Below are positions 4,196 through 12,000 of a stretch of 64,000 nucleotides of DNA, one piece after another. Within the stretch, counting starts at the first letter, position 1. The number at the start of each line of letters is the position of its first letter. The stretch is from contig NZ_BCRG01000003.1 of the NCBI RefSeq assembly GCF_001552475.1, forward strand, positions 1 to 64,000, given 5' to 3'. The position numbers and the translations under genes were made by a program. The notes under the pieces are model-generated. The model saw only the letters and a list, made by a program, of their open reading frames with translations, was not told where the DNA came from and ran no database searches. The stretch comes from Microbacterium oleivorans NBRC 103075 (GTDB lineage: Bacteria > Actinomycetota > Actinomycetes > Actinomycetales > Microbacteriaceae).

Positions 4196-5512
4196 GTGAC
4201 CGTTCTCGCATTCATCATCGGCGTCGTCGTGCTGGTGCTCGGGCTCGCCGTGTCCATCGCACTCCACGAGGTCGGCCACCTGCTGCCCGCCAAGGCGTTC
4301 GGCGTGCGCGTCGGCCAGTACATGATCGGTTTCGGTCCCACGATCTTCTCCCGCCGGAAGGGCGAGACGGAGTACGGCTTCAAGCTCCTGCCTCTCGGTG
4401 GCTACATCTCGATGGCGGGCATGTACCCACCCTCGCCCCGCGCCGCCGAGGCGGAGGCGGAAGGCCGCCCTCCTCGTCGTCGCCGACTCTTCGAAGCGAT
4501 GATCCAGGACGCGCGCGTGGTCAACGAGGAGACTCTGCAGGGCGACGGCGCCGACCGGGCGTTCTACCGTCTGCCGGTCTACAAGCGCGTCATCATCATG
4601 CTCGGCGGCCCGGCGATGAACCTCATCCTCGCCATCATCCTGTTCGCGATCATGTTCTCGGGTATCGGCGTGCAGACCGCGACCACCACGATCGCCTCCG
4701 TGAACGAGTGCGTCCTTCCTGCGGGCACGTCGAAGACTTCTTGCGCGGATGGAGACCCCGCGTCCCCGGCGGCCGCCGCCGGCATCCGTCCGGGTGACGT
4801 GATCGTCTCGGTCGACGGCACCACCGTTGACACCTTCGCCGAGGCGTCGGCGATCATCCAGAAGTCGCCGGATGCCACGATCCCCGTCGTCGTGGAACGG
4901 GACGGTGCGCGCCAGACGCTCCAGGTCACGCCCGTCCTCGCCACCCGCGAGGTCGCGGCGGCGGACGGCACGACCAAGACCGCGGAGGTCGGGTTCGTGG
5001 GCATGTCCGCCCGCGTCGCCTTCGTTTCGCAGCCGATCTGGGATGGCCCCCAGGCCGCGCTCGACCAGACCGGCCGCGTCGTCGGCATCATCTGGCAGCT
5101 GCCCGCCCGGGTCTACCAGACCGCCGTCGACACGGTCACGGGCGCCGGTCGCGATCCGAACGGGCCGCTGTCGGTCGTCGGCGCGGGGCGCCTCGCGGGA
5201 GAGGTCGCCGCGACGGAAGCTCCGATCCTCAATCGCGTCTCGGGCATGCTCGCGCTGCTGGGCTCGCTCAACATCGCCCTGTTCGTGTTCAACCTTGTGC
5301 CGCTCCTTCCGCTCGACGGCGGGCACGTCGTGGTGGCGCTCTGGGACGGACTCAAGCGCGTCTGGGCGAAGCTCACCGGTCGTCGTGCGCCGCGGCCGGT
5401 CGACGCGACGAAGCTCGTGCCGGTCACGTACATCGTGGTGATCGCGCTCGTCCTGATGGGCGGGACGTTGATCCTCGCCGACATCGTCAACCCGGTCCAG
5501 CTGTTCGGCTGA
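4196..5512 (+). CDS. M50 site-2 protease with PDZ domain (RseP/Rip1 family)
   Basis: This intramembrane zinc metalloprotease cleaves transmembrane substrates such as anti-sigma factors. The 438-residue protein has the zinc motif HEVGH at 24-28 in the first helix, a PDZ domain around 170-260 (RPGDVIVSVDG), and the third zinc ligand in LDGGH at 373-377. The final helix ends near the C-terminus. A TAGCGT box 8 bases before the GTG suggests a leaderless start. By synteny it is the Rip1 counterpart between dxr and ispG. Its end converges on the anthranilate synthase gene, and a 7-bp GGCTGAG/CTCAGCC hairpin spans both stops. Confidence 0.93.
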   Translation: MTVLAFIIGVVVLVLGLAVSIALHEVGHLLPAKAFGVRVGQYMIGFGPTIFSRRKGETEYGFKLLPLGGYISMAGMYPPSPRAAEAEAEGRPPRRRRLFEAMIQDARVVNEETLQGDGADRAFYRLPVYKRVIIMLGGPAMNLILAIILFAIMFSGIGVQTATTTIASVNECVLPAGTSKTSCADGDPASPAAAAGIRPGDVIVSVDGTTVDTFAEASAIIQKSPDATIPVVVERDGARQTLQVTPVLATREVAAADGTTKTAEVGFVGMSARVAFVSQPIWDGPQAALDQTGRVVGIIWQLPARVYQTAVDTVTGAGRDPNGPLSVVGAGRLAGEVAATEAPILNRVSGMLALLGSLNIALFVFNLVPLLPLDGGHVVVALWDGLKRVWAKLTGRRAPRPVDATKLVPVTYIVVIALVLMGGTLILADIVNPVQLFG

Positions 5513-5521
5513 GCCTGACTC

Positions 5522-7423
5522 TCAGCCCTCGACGGGGCTGAGCGCGTGGGTCACGAGACGCTCCAGCGTCGTGAGTCCGTCGCGCGACAGGATCGACTCG
5601 AGGTGGCCCTGCACGGACGCGTACCCGGGGCCGCGGAGCGCGTAGACGTCCCCGGTGGCCGCGTCGGCGGCGATCTCGGTAGCCGCGACGCGGTCGGTGC
5701 CGGGGGAGACCCGCGCGGTGAAGGTGTTGTAGAACCCGATGGATGCCGGGGTCCCGAACACGTCGACGGTCTTCTGGAGTCCCTGGTGCGGGCTCGCCAG
5801 CGGCGCGAGGTCGAGACCGACCCTGTCGGCGAGCACCTGGTGACTGAGGCAGACCGCGAGAAGCGGTGCTCCCGCGTCGAGGCGCGCGGCGACCACATCG
5901 CGGATCCGCGCGATGCGCTCGCTCTCCTCGTCACGCGGATCACCGGGGCCGGGGCCCGAAACGACAAGGTCCGCCGCCGCGACGGCGTCGGGGGATGCCT
6001 CGGACCAGTGCGAGATCGTCACGTCGAAACCGAGGTGGCGGAGCTGGTGGGCGAGCATGGTCGTGAAGCGATCCTCGGCATCCACCACCAGTGCACGGGT
6101 GCCCGCGAACGGGCCTCGCTCCGGCTCGCCCTGCGGGTTGAGCCAGAACGCCGCCAGTCGAGCGTTCCGAGACGACAACAGCTCCGCGATCGCGGGGTCC
6201 TCGCCCAGCGGGCGGGCGGCGGCAGCGGGGGCGTCCTCGTCGACCGGCGCGGGGACGACGTCGCGCGGGATGGCGCCGATGGCACCGAGCACGCCGGCAG
6301 CCTTGCCATGGGTCTCGCCGACCTCACCGTACGGATCGGAGTGGCGCACGAGGGTCGCACCGACCGGCACCCGCAGCCGTCCGTCGACGACGTAGGCGGT
6401 GCGGATCAGGATCGGGGCGTCGAGGTCGTGGCCGCCGTCGGGGCGCGGCGTGAAGAGGGCCGCGACGCCCGAGTAATAGCCGCGGGGGCTCTGCTCGTGC
6501 CGAGCGATCACGGTGCAGGCGTTCTGCATGGGGGAGCCCGTGACGGTCGGAGCGAACATCGTCTCGCGGAGGATGTCGCGCGGGTCCATCGTGCTCGTCC
6601 CGCGCAGCATGTACTCCGTGTGCGTCAGGCGCGACATCTCCTTCAGGTGCGGCCCCGTGATGCGGCCGCCGTCGCTGCAGACGGCGGACATCATCTTGAG
6701 CTCCTCGTCGACCACCATGAAGAGCTCTTCGGTCTCCTTCGTCGAGGAGAGGAACTCAGTCAGCGTCTCGGCCGTGGCCCCGCCCGCCGGGTGGCGGAAC
6801 GTCCCCGAGATCGGATTCATCGTGACGACGCCGTCCTGGGCGCTGACGTGCGCCTCAGGGCTCGCGCCGACCGCGAGGTGGTCCGGGGTGGAGACGAGGA
6901 ACGTCCAGTACGCCCCGCGCTCGTGCTCGAGGAGGGCGCGGAACCAGGTGAGGCCCGCGGTCAGCGGATCCCCGCCGACGCTCGCGGTGTAGTCGCGGCG
7001 GATGACGAAGTTCGCGCCCTCACCGCGGCCGATCTCGTCGGCGATGACGCGGCGCACGATGTCGGCGTACGCCTCGTCGTCGATGTCGAACCCGGCGTCC
7101 TCGAGCGGGATGCGGGCGGTCGGCAACTGGGCGAGCGCATCGGCGAGGGGGAGCGAGTGGCGCTCGCCGACCACCAGGCAGCGCAGCGGCGCGGCGTCGT
7201 CGTGACACGCGAACCCGCGCTCGACGACCTGACGGAAGGGCACCAGCGCCAGGACCTCGCGGGCTCCGCCTGTCGCGTCGGTGAGAGGGATGTCGGCGAG
7301 CAGATCGACATCGACGACATCGCCGGTGAGCACCTCGACCGTCTCCCCGTCGCGAGCGAGGAGGGCGAACGGGATGCCGCGGGCGGCGAGGTCGGCGAGG
7401 ATGATCGGGGCGGTGCCGGACAT
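5522..7423 (-). CDS. trpE(G): Fused anthranilate synthase TrpE-TrpG (PhzE-like clade)
   Basis: It makes anthranilate from chorismate and glutamine for tryptophan synthesis. The N-terminal chorismate-binding half carries NPISGTFRHP, KETEELFMVVDEE and TVTGSP. A linker near 430-470 leads into a class I glutaminase with catalytic Cys525 (AVCLSHQ), His607 and Glu609 (QGHLE). Several blocks resemble PhzE, the phenazine ADIC synthase, as remembered from family sequences. However, no other phenazine gene is nearby, and the gene is preceded by a Trp-Trp leader peptide and attenuator, which points to tryptophan control. The ATG at 7423 follows GGAAG. The 633-residue length fits a bifunctional fusion. 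ADIC synthase activity remains an alternative. Confidence 0.88.
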   Translation of the reverse strand: MSGTAPIILADLAARGIPFALLARDGETVEVLTGDVVDVDLLADIPLTDATGGAREVLALVPFRQVVERGFACHDDAAPLRCLVVGERHSLPLADALAQLPTARIPLEDAGFDIDDEAYADIVRRVIADEIGRGEGANFVIRRDYTASVGGDPLTAGLTWFRALLEHERGAYWTFLVSTPDHLAVGASPEAHVSAQDGVVTMNPISGTFRHPAGGATAETLTEFLSSTKETEELFMVVDEELKMMSAVCSDGGRITGPHLKEMSRLTHTEYMLRGTSTMDPRDILRETMFAPTVTGSPMQNACTVIARHEQSPRGYYSGVAALFTPRPDGGHDLDAPILIRTAYVVDGRLRVPVGATLVRHSDPYGEVGETHGKAAGVLGAIGAIPRDVVPAPVDEDAPAAAARPLGEDPAIAELLSSRNARLAAFWLNPQGEPERGPFAGTRALVVDAEDRFTTMLAHQLRHLGFDVTISHWSEASPDAVAAADLVVSGPGPGDPRDEESERIARIRDVVAARLDAGAPLLAVCLSHQVLADRVGLDLAPLASPHQGLQKTVDVFGTPASIGFYNTFTARVSPGTDRVAATEIAADAATGDVYALRGPGYASVQGHLESILSRDGLTTLERLVTHALSPVEG

Positions 7424-7464
7424 GGGGGATCTTCCGTTCGGGGCGGTCGCCGGTAAAACGAGAA

Positions 7465-7496
7465 ACGACCGCCGGGCTGTCAGCTCAGGCGGTCGT
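7465..7496 (-). terminator. trp attenuator terminator hairpin
   Basis: Read on the minus strand, ACGACCGCC and GGCGGTCGT form a perfect 9-bp stem with a 14-base loop, followed by TTCTCGTTTT. This is a standard intrinsic terminator between the leader peptide and the anthranilate synthase start. An upstream GGCGGACG could pair with the first arm (7 of 8 positions) as antiterminator, giving classic alternative folds. Confidence 0.85.
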
Positions 7497-7518
7497 CGGG
7501 ATGCTCGCAGCGTCCGCC

Positions 7519-7554
7519 TCAGGCGGGGCGCCACCACGTGCGGTTCGCGAACAT
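7519..7554 (-). CDS. trpL: Tryptophan leader peptide MFANRTWWRPA
   Basis: This is an 11-codon ORF with two adjacent Trp codons at positions 7 and 8, ending about 100 bases before the fused anthranilate synthase. Tandem Trp codons ahead of competing hairpins are the hallmark of ribosome-mediated attenuation. When tryptophanyl-tRNA is scarce the ribosome stalls at the pair and the antiterminator forms. Streptomyces trpE leaders are recalled to begin similarly with MFA and carry tandem Trp. CCGCC within its end can pair with the GGCGG just after its stop to form the protector hairpin. Confidence 0.85.
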   Translation of the reverse strand: MFANRTWWRPA

Positions 7555-7640
7555 GGGGTGAACCTACCACAGGCGCCTTTGGCGGCATCCTCGCGGGCAG
7601 GCGCCGTGCCGCCAGGGCCTGCGCGGCTTAGGCTGGAGTC

Positions 7641-8792
<1,152 letters not shown>

Positions 8793-8838: not shown

Positions 8839-9858
8839 TCAGCTCCAGAGGGAGTGGTACGCGTTGATCGCGGGCTGCCCGCCGAGGTGCGCGTAGAGGA
8901 CCGTTGAGTCCTTCGGGATGTCGCCGTCCTTCACGAGGTCGATGAGCCCGGCGAGCGACTTGCCCTCGTAGACGGGGTCGGTGATCATCGCCTCGAGCTG
9001 TGCGCCGAGCGCCATCGCCGACATCGTCGAGTCGACGGGGATCCCGTACAGCTCGCCCGCCCAGCCCTCGAGCACCTGGATCTCTTCGTCGCGGAGGTCA
9101 CGGCCGAGCTCGATGAGCTCCGCCGTGTTGCGGGCGATGCGGGCGACCTGGTCGCGCGTCTTCTGGAGCGTCGCCGAGGCGTCGATCCCGATGACGCGGC
9201 GCCGCACGCCGGTCAGATCTTCGAGGGCGGCGAAGCCGGCAATCATTCCCGCGTGGGTCGACCCGGTCACGGTGCAGACGACGATCGTGTCGAAGAAGAC
9301 GCCGAACTGCTTCTCCTGCTCGGCGACCTCGAACGCCCAGTTCGCGAAGCCGAGACCGCCGAGGCGGTGCTCCGATGCTCCGGCGGGAATCGGGTACGGG
9401 GTGCCGCCGGCATCCTCCACGTCCTGCAGGGCCTGCTTCCACGAGTCACGGATGCCGATGTCGAAGCCGGCGTCGTCGAGACGGGAGTCGGCGCCCATCA
9501 TGCGCGACAGCAGGATGTTGCCGACCTTGTCGTTGACCGGCTCATCCCACGGCACCCACTTCTCCTGCACGAGGCGTGCCTTGAGCCCGAGGTGGGCGGC
9601 GACGGCGGCCACCTGCCGCGTGTGGTTGGACTGGTAGCCGCCGATCGACACGATCGTGTCGGCGCCGCTCGCGAGCACGTCCGGGACGATGTACTCGAGC
9701 TTGCGGGTCTTGTTGCCGCCGAAGGCCAGGCCGCTCGAAACGTCTTCACGCTTGGCCCACACCTGCGCGCCGCCCAGGTGCTGGGTCAGCCGCTTCAGGT
9801 GGTGGATCGGGCTCGGCCCGAAGGTGAGCGGATGCCGGGGGAACTGGTCGAGGATCAT
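8839..9858 (-). CDS. acdS: 1-aminocyclopropane-1-carboxylate deaminase
   Basis: This PLP enzyme opens the cyclopropane ring of ACC, the plant ethylene precursor, giving 2-oxobutyrate and ammonia. The 339-residue protein follows the family along its whole length: [12 protein letters not shown] start, Lys50 in GGNKTRK as PLP lysine, and [12 protein letters not shown]. Tyr297-Glu298 in DPVYEGKS and Leu325 in YAHLGG match the residues that separate true ACC deaminases from D-cysteine desulfhydrases, as recalled from Pseudomonas AcdS. AGGAGA precedes the ATG. The start overlaps the gntR stop (ATGA), so the two are translationally coupled. A plant-associated lifestyle is a reasonable inference. Confidence 0.88.
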
Positions 9859-10517
9859 GCGGTCTCCTGAGGGGTGGTGTCGGCGAGCAGGTCGAGCCAG
9901 AGGCTCTCGGCCACACTGGCCGCGGCCTGGGCGTCGCGGGCGGCGCAGTGTCGGATGAGGTCGGCATGGCGGGCCGCGGAGGCGTCCGCGTCGTCCGACG
10001 AGAAGCGGAGGCGCTCTGCTCGCTCCAGGACGGGGCCGTAGAGGGCGAGGACGGTGCGGACCGCGTCGTTGTCGGCGCGATCGACCGCGACGGCGTGGAA
10101 GTCGTGGTCGGCGCGAAGGGCGGCCGCGGTGTCGCCGGCGGCGTGGGCGGCGATGAACGCCTCGTTCGCCTCCCGCATCCGCTGGATGTCGTCGTCGGTC
10201 AACAGTGGGGTCGCCTCCACCACTGCGACCCGGTGCATCGACGCGACGACGGCCGCGGCATCCCGGACCGCCCGTCCGTCGACGGGAGCCACGATCGTCG
10301 ACCGGCCCGGCAAGGCGAGCACGAGGCCCGAACGCGCGAGGTCGAGGAGCGCCTCCCGAACCGGAGTGCGAGATACGCCCAGCCACCTCGACAGTTCGAG
10401 GTCGCGGAGCTGCTCGCCCGGGGCGAGGGTTCCGTCGACGATCGCGTCGCGCAGGCGGGTGCGGACTTCGTCGCGGAGGAGGGCTCGTGGCGGGAGAGAC
10501 GTGGCGGGCACCGGCAT
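9855..10517 (-). CDS. GntR-family regulator (FCD type), likely controls acdS
   Basis: This 220-residue transcription factor has an N-terminal winged helix (about 12-75, with [17 protein letters not shown]) and an all-helical FCD-like ligand domain with His/Asp pairs (DHDFH). It is the first gene of a two-gene operon with acdS, overlapping by ATGA. The ATG at 10517 abuts a perfect 14-bp palindrome, and the putative -10 lies seven bases upstream, so the mRNA appears leaderless and autoregulated. The ligand is unknown; ACC or its degradation product is plausible. Confidence 0.87.
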
Positions 10518-10530
10518 GCAATATATTGCA
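10517..10530. promoter_or_regulatory. Palindromic operator over the gntR -10 and start
   Basis: TGCAATATATTGCA is a perfect palindrome and the only AT-rich island nearby. On the minus strand TGCAAT can be the -10, with TTGCGC 17 bases upstream as -35, and ATG begins seven bases after the -10. A bound GntR dimer would block RNA polymerase directly. Confidence 0.65.
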
Positions 10531-10563
10531 CACCGAGGTGAGCTTCCGCGCAAATCGGCGCGC

Positions 10564-12000
10564 TCAGGCCCGTATGAACTCGCTTCTGCCCCGGGTGACG
10601 TCGACGCTGACCAGACGGATGCGGACGGTGCTGCCCGGCTCCGCGTCGACGCCCGGGACGACGGTTTCGAGAGGCGGGTCCGAAAGGGCGACGCGCGCGC
10701 CGTTCTCCCGCCGCCGGAGGACCACGGCATCGAGCTCCTCGCCCTGACGGCTGGCGAGCACCGCCGCGGCGACCCGCTCGACGGCGGCCCCGTCGACCTG
10801 CGACGCGACCCTCGAGGTTCGCTCCATCGCTTCGGGGATCTCCGCGAGCGAGGCGCGGATCTCGCCCGGGACGTCGCGGCCGTTCGCCAGTGCATCGCAG
10901 ACGAGAAGGGCCCACCGGTCCACGAGGCGACGCAGCGGCGCCGTCACGTGCGCGTAGGGCGCGGCGATCGCCGCCTGCAAGGTCAGCTCGGGAAGCTCGC
11001 CGTCGAAAGCGGCGTACCCGGCGCCCCGGAAGAGCCCGGCGGCGTGCTCGCGGATGGCCCGACCGGTCGGCGTGCGCGGGAGGTCGTTCAGGTACTCGCC
11101 GTAGGCGACACCCTCGCGCCAGGGCAGCCCGAAGCCCACGGTCTGGGCACGGAAAGTCGTGATGTCCTCGTCGGATGCCGGGGGCATCGTCCGGAGAATC
11201 CCGACTTTCCCGGCGATCATGATCTCCGCCGCCGCCATCCCGGTCAGGAGCGAGACCTGCGCGTTGGCGTCCTCGAGGGCCACGCCGTCGTCGGCCTCGA
11301 GAGCGTACCCCGCGGCCGAGGTCACGACGCGGATCTCGGGCAGGTTCAGGCTCGCGCCGCCGCGTTCGATCTCCCGTTGCGCGCGCTCGTCGCCGAACCA
11401 CACGAGGTGGCGGAGAGTGTCGGGAGCATCGCCGCGGTCGAGCGCGGCCTGCGCGTCCACATACGACCACTGGGCGCGGGAGCGGATGACTCCGCGCGTC
11501 AGCGTCGTCGCCACCGGGCGGGCCCCGGCATCCAACTCGAACCGCCAGACGTAAGCCCGACGGTCCTGATCCGGGAGGAGGGAAGCGGCATCTTCGCTGA
11601 GGACCGCGGGGTGCAGCGGAATGCGCCCATCGGGTGTGTAGATGGTCTGCCCGCGGCGGCGGGCTTCGGCATCCACGGCCCCGCCGAAGGCGACGAAGGC
11701 GGGGACGTCGGCGATGGCGTAGTGCAGGATGCCGCCGCCGTCATCGGTGCGCTCGAGATGCATGGCCTGATCGAGGTCGGTCGATCCCGCCGGGTCGATC
11801 GTGAGGAAGGGGATGCCTCGCAGATCCGCCAGCGCGGGTTCGGCCGGCTCGACGGAAACCGTCGATGCGGCACGCTCCGCTTCGGCGTTCACCTCGGCAG
11901 GGAAGCCGTTGGGAAGCTCGAACTCGTCGCGAAGGGCCGCGAGGGCGTCCTTCAGCTCCGACTGGGCGGGAGAGACGAGGCGGGCGCGGCGGGAGGGCAC
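10564..12000 (-). CDS. RNB-domain ribonuclease (RNase II/R family, short actinobacterial type)
   Basis: This is a probable 3'-5' exoribonuclease of 478 residues, largely an RNB domain with a short C-terminal extension and no clear S1 or cold-shock domains. The catalytic loop is DPAGSTDLDQA (Asp69, Asp75, Asp77), with Gln78 where RNase II has its fourth aspartate. The start is a GTG at 12000, six bases after TACACT, and so leaderless. It is on the same strand as gntR-acdS, but those have their own promoter, so it is probably monocistronic. Confidence 0.85.
   Translation of the reverse strand: MPSRRARLVSPAQSELKDALAALRDEFELPNGFPAEVNAEAERAASTVSVEPAEPALADLRGIPFLTIDPAGSTDLDQAMHLERTDDGGGILHYAIADVPAFVAFGGAVDAEARRRGQTIYTPDGRIPLHPAVLSEDAASLLPDQDRRAYVWRFELDAGARPVATTLTRGVIRSRAQWSYVDAQAALDRGDAPDTLRHLVWFGDERAQREIERGGASLNLPEIRVVTSAAGYALEADDGVALEDANAQVSLLTGMAAAEIMIAGKVGILRTMPPASDEDITTFRAQTVGFGLPWREGVAYGEYLNDLPRTPTGRAIREHAAGLFRGAGYAAFDGELPELTLQAAIAAPYAHVTAPLRRLVDRWALLVCDALANGRDVPGEIRASLAEIPEAMERTSRVASQVDGAAVERVAAAVLASRQGEELDAVVLRRRENGARVALSDPPLETVVPGVDAEPGSTVRIRLVSVDVTRGRSEFIRA

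Follow-up and report, generated by a model that had tools for sequence, protein, structure and literature searches.

A tryptophan attenuator of the classical, ribosome-mediated type appears to control the first committed step of tryptophan synthesis in Microbacterium oleivorans NBRC 103075, and that step appears to be carried out by a fused anthranilate synthase of the PhzE family that has replaced canonical TrpE in the genus. We put the probability of this reading at about 90%, and consider it very likely that the observation and the type of mechanism are right. The window, the whole 64,000-nucleotide stretch of contig NZ_BCRG01000003.1 that was analysed, holds the following elements, with the basis for each in parentheses.

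7561..7569 (-): predicted extended -10 box TGG-TAGGTT, 6 nt 5' of the leader ATG (TAnnnT conservation)
7519..7554 (-): leader peptide ORF MFANRTWWRPA, 11 codons (ATG at 7554, stop TGA at 7521-7519)
7546..7554 (-): 5' arm of the outer protector helix, includes the leader AUG (ribosome-free fold, swap test)
7531..7536 (-): tandem Trp control codons UGG UGG (columns invariant in 40 aligned leaders, partly by construction, as these leaders were selected for WW)
7522..7526 (-): segment 1, CCGCC, the last leader codons, able to pair with segment 2 (complementarity)
7514..7519 (-): segment 2, AGGCGG, whose first base is also the final base of the leader stop codon (complementarity to segment 3)
7501..7509 (-): 3' arm of the outer protector helix, UGCGAGCAU (ribosome-free fold, swap test)
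7488..7497 (-): segment 3, GACGACCGCC, antiterminator or terminator arm (fold, pairing statistics)
7464..7473 (-): segment 4, GGCGGTCGTT, terminator arm (fold, pairing statistics)
7455..7465 (-): T-rich tract TTTCTCGTTTT, overlapping the terminator 3' arm by its first two bases
5522..7423 (-): fused chorismate-binding and glutamine amidotransferase enzyme, 633 aa, PhzE-like (Pfam PF00425 and PF00117; PDB 3r74)
4196..5512 (+): convergent neighbor of the PhzE-like gene, which, from its sequence, we take to encode an RseP-like protease (ORF list)
7641..8792 (+): divergent neighbor of the PhzE-like gene, presumably IspG-like (ORF list)

Read along the minus strand from 7566, the order is TAGGTT, six bases, the ATG at 7554, AGGCGG at 7519-7514, the terminator arms, TTTCTCGTTTT, and the enzyme start at 7423, with 95 nt between the leader ORF and the start of the fused gene. 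An earlier note had read the leader MFANRTWWRPA on the minus strand from the letters alone, and it is indeed there at 7554-7519 with UGG UGG at 7536-7531; a scan of both strands of the window for WW leaders returned it as the sole match. The intergenic region of 217 nt (7424-7640) is common to the attenuator promoter and the divergent IspG-like gene. Farther along, at 8839-10895, a minus-strand ORF whose second half has, to our eye, the look of an ACC deaminase or D-cysteine desulfhydrase adjoins what we presume to be a GntR-like regulator.

Conservation of the leader and its predicted promoter

The first set of loci with a relative of the enzyme numbered 105, made up of 25 from one group of searches and the best 80 of 575 matches from another. 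A WW leader lies upstream in 97 of the 105, giving 89 distinct leaders. The eight loci without one are L026, L038, L068, L023, Pseudomonas aeruginosa PA7 (L102), L104, L105, and L106. For L026, L038, and L068, upstream sequence is absent or the locus is a C-terminal fragment, and L026 is scored as lacking a leader although its N-terminal half, L025, has one. L104 adjoins what we take to be a PhzD-like isochorismatase and an oxidoreductase, in an apparent biosynthetic cluster. L023 (3200-3460, from a 1.4-Mb relative) has the same ispG neighbor and little intergenic room, and no WW leader was found there.

Loss of the WW codons or of stem pairing in close relatives, which the earlier note had named as evidence against an attenuator, is not what the relatives display. 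Where the enzyme is at least 70% identical (59 loci), a WW leader precedes it at 57 loci, and for the remaining two upstream sequence is absent. In the leader alignment, the terminator pairing is present in 99.1% of cells. Within the sequence available for each locus, the RseP-like and IspG-like neighbors are both present at 48 of the 59 loci above 70% identity and at none of the remaining loci. When the upstream regions of the gene and its relatives (210, counting that of the window gene) were scanned for a WW ORF no longer than 30 aa, with TAnnnT 5 to 9 nt upstream and at a set distance, 165 of them contained one; the same rule finds 0/210 on the opposite strand and 2/4200 in single-base shuffles.

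Placement of the TAnnnT box is tight, at 6 to 8 nt upstream of the leader start in 85 of the 89 distinct leaders; four other offset ranges gave between 0 and 4 of 89. This suggests that the leader is transcribed leaderless, and the spacing of the -10 box places the predicted transcription start probably at or adjoining A7554. A sigma-70 scan reported no promoter. The predicted leaderless leader fits the leaderless TrpL1 reported, in the available part of PMC8079986, for Streptomyces lividans.

Pairings of the leader RNA

The terminator arms, 7497-7488 and 7473-7464 (ACGACCGCC/GGCGGTCGT), form nine Watson-Crick pairs and one G-U around a 14-nt loop, and the minus strand from 7440 to 7560 folds at -54.5 kcal/mol (z -2.93, with 2/200 shuffles equally good). 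A consensus terminator scan did not report the hairpin at 7497-7464 because its 14-nt loop exceeds the limit of 8 in that scan. Among the distinct leaders, a 3:4 helix of at least 7 bp is present in 87/89, a 2:3 helix of at least 5 bp in 82/89, and a 1:2 helix of at least 4 bp in 85/89. The 2:3 pairing is matched by 185/1780 shuffled segments, and in the best fold of the window leader segment 2 pairs with codons 4 and 5, not with segment 1.

The covariation score of the terminator is 0.149 versus 0.058 for shuffled alignments, with 0/500 shuffles as high, a comparison in which related rows can exceed shuffles without any structure. The signal is carried mostly by one pair, A-U in 19/40 leaders and C-G in 18/40; two pairs are changed on both sides, a number reached by 36/500 shuffles, and the pair types are reached by 17/500. 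For the 2:3 antiterminator no covariation was found, with 84.1% of cells paired, 309/500 shuffles as high, and the score reached by 500/500. A partner-swap test of 2:3, the second search for covariation, gave z 0.1, with segment 2 placed after the stop codon, a position that is misplaced for Streptomyces-type leaders. The antiterminator core GGCGG/CCGCC is nearly invariant, and across 40 leaders the core of segment 2 is kept while its flanks vary.

A further helix, absent from the earlier description, joins the first leader codons (AUGUUCGCG) to UGCGAGCAU, RNA that lies a few bases 3' of segment 2. RNAalifold on a MAFFT alignment did not show this outer helix, probably because the variable region was misaligned, and paired the Trp codons with the bases that follow them; the partner-swap test was used in its place. 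In 48 representatives of the 89 leaders, native partners fold on average at -12.5 kcal/mol versus -9.8 kcal/mol for swapped ones (z -7.4, 0/10000 permutations), with 4/10000 in the subgroup above 70% identity and 0/10000 in that under 70%. The test repeated class-wide with 56 representatives gave 0/10000 overall, 0 in the nearer group, and 291/10000 in the farther group.

The 89 distinct leaders were also folded under a ribosome mask of assumed footprint, and the three states expected of an attenuator resulted. With the ribosome stalled at the first Trp codon, 2:3 forms before segment 4 in 84/89; with the ribosome at the stop codon, the terminator forms in 86/89; and with no ribosome, the protector pairing forms in 87/89 and the terminator in 86/89. 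At equilibrium with segment 4 present, 2:3 survives in 3/89, the window leader not among them, so that antitermination must be kinetic. Rfam models run over the 64-kb window at gathering scores gave no match to the attenuator, Trp_leader included, and a local search at E up to 1 gave only two unrelated weak matches on the opposite strand.

Set against these results, the observation made from the letters alone holds: the terminator has its 9 bp (10 with the G-U) and its T-rich tail at 7465-7455, and protector pairing forms in the ribosome-free folds. The antiterminator stands as a complementarity but not as a helix with compensatory change, which neither test found.

The ribosome positions, kinetics, and response to tryptophan that we infer from this layout would be as follows. 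When Trp-tRNA is ample, the ribosome would reach the stop codon and cover segment 2, leaving segments 3 and 4 to form the terminator. When Trp-tRNA is scarce, it would stall at UGG UGG, covering segment 1 and the arm of the outer helix; segment 2, left uncovered, would then pair with segment 3 ahead of the synthesis of segment 4, allowing RNA polymerase to read through. With no ribosome at all, the leader would fold on itself and the terminator would form.

The enzyme and the tryptophan genes of the genome

Compared to solved structures, the enzyme matches PDB 3r74, which we take to be PhzE, at 527 bits, and the next best match is at 77.5 bits, confirming the PhzE-like character claimed for it from the sequence. 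NCBIfam anthranilate synthase models also match, far below their cut-offs, among the 25 of 40 matching families listed. The layout is of the SvTrpEG type, with a chorismate-binding domain followed by a GATase domain in a PhzE-like sequence. Nine alignment columns split 94 WW rows from 22 PhzE-group rows at 75% each (e.g., L273/I, P353/G, and V378/L); they may be a lead to what separates anthranilate synthase from ADIC synthase and are not diagnostic. We infer that the product of the PhzE-like gene is the anthranilate synthase of tryptophan synthesis (TrpEG).

The surrounding genome (2.98 Mb, 20 contigs, 99.99% complete) agrees with such a role. It holds three chorismate-binding enzymes, namely, the PhzE-like one, one nearest PabB, and one isochorismate synthase; the PabB-like match, at 317.5 bits, falls just below the cut-off of 328.4, and canonical TrpE has no match at E up to 1e-100. 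The cluster that carries the other tryptophan genes reads hisG-hisF-hisI-ORF-trpC-trpB-trpA, without trpE, with hisI overlapping the next ORF by four bases (HisI, TrpC, TrpB, and TrpA named by NCBIfam, HisG and HisF by eye), and a trpD candidate lies on another contig. A relative in the family (L113) carries hisF-hisI-trpE-ORF, with TrpE named by profile match and the others by eye. The PhzE-like gene has RseP-like and IspG-like neighbors. The downstream gene would thus serve tryptophan synthesis. The earlier note is supported in assigning the enzyme to tryptophan, given that no canonical TrpE was found, but not in calling the attenuator the best clue, as the absence of another anthranilate synthase candidate is the stronger one and outweighs it.

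At the place of the missing trpE, between hisI and trpC, lies an ORF of 194 aa (L118, 6678-7262, minus strand) that looks by eye like a membrane protein and has no NCBIfam match at 1e-10.

Distribution in the genus, family, and class

At E up to 1e-80, the TrpE model matches 4 of 149 Microbacterium genomes. A single genome of the 149 (G571) has a full-length canonical match, at 646.9 bits and below the cut-off of 693; the three others are partial, at 272 to 284 bits, and the one that was checked is PabB. A leader model, R1, built from 40 leaders, matches 147 of the 149, counted as matches to the model alone, and the two genomes without a match are assemblies of 480 and 650 contigs. Weak R1 hits elsewhere in the M. 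oleivorans genome reach at most 21 bits, and the best of the four (L122) showed no WW leader at the hit. The PhzE-like enzyme seems to have replaced TrpE through nearly the whole genus. This near genus-wide replacement and the outer helix on the start-codon region of the leader are, as far as we have seen, new; in the open-licence literature no title on tryptophan attenuation in Microbacterium was found, and older work may already say so.

In the family, the PhzE-like enzyme occurs in 24 of 199 genomes. Canonical TrpE is missing in 11 of these 24 versus 12 of the 175 without the enzyme (Fisher p 4e-6, uncorrected for descent, from a table compiled by hand in which three unlisted genomes were placed by elimination), and the other 13 of the 24 also have canonical TrpE. 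By R1, the leader is present in 23 of the 24, with 22 hits scoring 54 bits or more, and a further one at 35 bits, directly upstream of the PhzE-like gene by coordinates; 13 of these genomes supplied training rows for R1, and others are near-copies of such rows. Three hits below 32 bits were inspected (L152 to L154), and none has such a leader.

In some family genomes without the PhzE-like enzyme, R1 located WW leaders in other places. Three lie before trpB and come with hairpins: MQIARNWWAA (L148, genome G161), MHTANQWWTA (L150, G158), and (MSRNA)MQSWWAA (L151, G136), with TrpB named by NCBIfam for one and by eye for two. In a fourth such genome (L147, G089), the WW leader MTTAWWPTFSVG, at about 1591-1553, and a terminator-like hairpin immediately precede a gene that by eye looks like a methyltransferase (about 1470 to 766, minus strand) and that NCBIfam does not match at 1e-10. 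A Trp attenuator would not be expected at such a gene.

Across the class, the enzyme is found at E up to 1e-60 in 109 of 296 genomes. Of 121 matches listed, 110 were read (30 already among the loci and 80 fetched, with 11 left out), and a WW leader precedes 73 of the 110 and is missing from 37. Nine genomes had two fetched copies, and in all nine exactly one copy has a WW leader; G308 has a third copy, and G336 a second, outside the fetched set. From the 210 proteins, 135 were kept for a tree after removal of near-duplicates, of short sequences and those with internal stops, and of most of those above 70% identity. The tree was built quickly, without bootstrap or outgroup and with a midpoint root for drawing only. 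On it, the leader and no-leader labels change 6 times versus 35.5 when shuffled (0/500), and 22 rows without a WW leader, P. aeruginosa PA7 PhzE included, form one group (SH-aLRT 99).

Within one family of the class (f33), 7 of 23 loci have a WW leader and 16 have the enzyme without one. Among these 16, 14 have, by a simple rule, TAnnnT 5 to 9 nt before a start codon near the enzyme start, and enzyme genes with the box in this position (e.g., at L238, L240, and L246) are apparently leaderless.

Alternative readings

That a short WW ORF lies by chance near an unrelated terminator is the least of the alternatives, and we give it a negligible probability: hairpins are common in G+C-rich DNA and shuffled segments do reach the 2:3 pairing at the rate given above, but the layout found in 165 of 210 upstream regions is nearly absent from shuffles and absent from the opposite strand, and it is conserved. 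The elements could be real and yet contain no terminator switch, with, for instance, translational coupling or a Trp-responsive pause at work and the hairpin merely terminating transcripts that read in. The 2:3 pairing, which is without covariation and loses to the terminator fold when segment 4 is present, would allow for this. We nevertheless think it quite improbable, given the nearly invariant core of segment 2 between variable flanks in 40 leaders, the formation of 2:3 in 84 of 89 masked folds, and a layout that agrees with the attenuators predicted in Corynebacterium and Streptomyces, as described in the available part of PMC1262725.

Hardly more probable, in our view, is that the enzyme, as an ADIC synthase, serves phenazine or related secondary metabolism and is regulated only incidentally by the supply of tryptophan. 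The protein itself leans this way, as its best structure match is 3r74 and the anthranilate synthase models fall so far short of their cut-offs. In the available part of PMC5958127, moreover, protein sequences give no hint of why PhzE stops before anthranilate. The genome argues the other way, with no canonical TrpE found elsewhere in it and none of the ORFs at 2.7 to 12.4 kb of the window looking phz-like by eye; PHZA_PHZB also has no match in the genome, a weak test in that 1 of 14 control genomes matches, and that one below the cut-off. In the tree, moreover, the group of 22 rows around P. aeruginosa PhzE is entirely without a WW leader.

Going further than an attenuated tryptophan enzyme of the PhzE family, one can suppose that Microbacterium lost canonical TrpE and runs tryptophan synthesis on this enzyme under a leaderless attenuator that folds its own start codon into a protector helix, so that only an early-loading ribosome opens the switch. 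Phenazine-type PhzE, an unattenuated group among many attenuated lineages, would then descend from such a tryptophan enzyme, the attenuator having been shed on entry into gene clusters. We offer this combined scenario tentatively and think it more doubtful than probable.

Relation to known systems

Mechanisms of this type are familiar from E. coli trpL, the Rfam Trp_leader family. The present leader differs in having no Rfam match and in a protector helix that pairs the start-codon region. PhzE (3r74; P. aeruginosa PA7, L102) has the same protein family and domain order and sits in a separate tree group; unlike the window gene, the PA7 gene has no WW leader found upstream. The TrpEG of Streptomyces venezuelae is reportedly an anthranilate synthase in the work of Ashenafi 2015 as well, as relayed by citing papers.

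The attenuator type is already known, with its nearest precedent in the trpL-trpE(G) attenuator of Streptomyces. The sources, in their available parts, describe classical attenuators predicted before the trp operons of Corynebacterium and Streptomyces (Seliverstov 2005, PMC1262725, which cites an experimental S. venezuelae case), a trp attenuator before the anthranilate synthase gene of S. venezuelae (Lin, Paradkar and Vining 1998, cited in PMC4833913 and PMC1262725), and a study of Trp attenuators in Actinobacteria (Korolev 2015, cited in PMC4833913). For the enzymes, they describe SvTrpEG as PhzE-like yet functioning as an anthranilate synthase rather than as an ADIC synthase (Ashenafi 2008, cited in PMC3111181), PhzE-like Lim6 as forming mainly ADIC and some anthranilate (PMC5958127), and a TrpEG-like enzyme in Rhodococcus equi (PMC2947987). 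Compared by description and not by sequence, S. venezuelae shares the fused PhzE-like enzyme, the Trp-codon leader, and the attenuator. The window leader has two Trp codons and a segment 2 that begins at the stop codon, whereas the Streptomyces-type leaders of our class sample have three Trp codons and then about seven residues; unlike the S. venezuelae case, moreover, the window enzyme is the only anthranilate synthase candidate found in its own genome.

Fused PhzE-like genes are easily mistaken for phenazine genes, and the leader, which can be read from DNA, seems to single out those that serve tryptophan synthesis. Three points may be of use to a specialist. One is the near genus-wide replacement of TrpE, by which tryptophan synthesis in this genus would depend on an attenuated gene detached from the others; another is the helix on the start codon. 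The third is the set of nine two-copy class genomes, each a natural pair of one attenuated and one nonattenuated gene, which bear on the question of ADIC versus anthranilate.

In S. lividans, TrpL1 (MFAHSTRNWWWTAHPAAH) precedes a monocistronic trpE and is transcribed leaderless, according to the available part of PMC8079986. The window leader is likewise predicted to be leaderless, with the start known there and predicted here, and differs in sequence and spacing. Leaders near-identical to TrpL1 (MFAHSTQNWWWTAHPAAH) precede PhzE-like genes in our class sample, and the S. lividans gene behind TrpL1 very likely belongs to the PhzE-like family.
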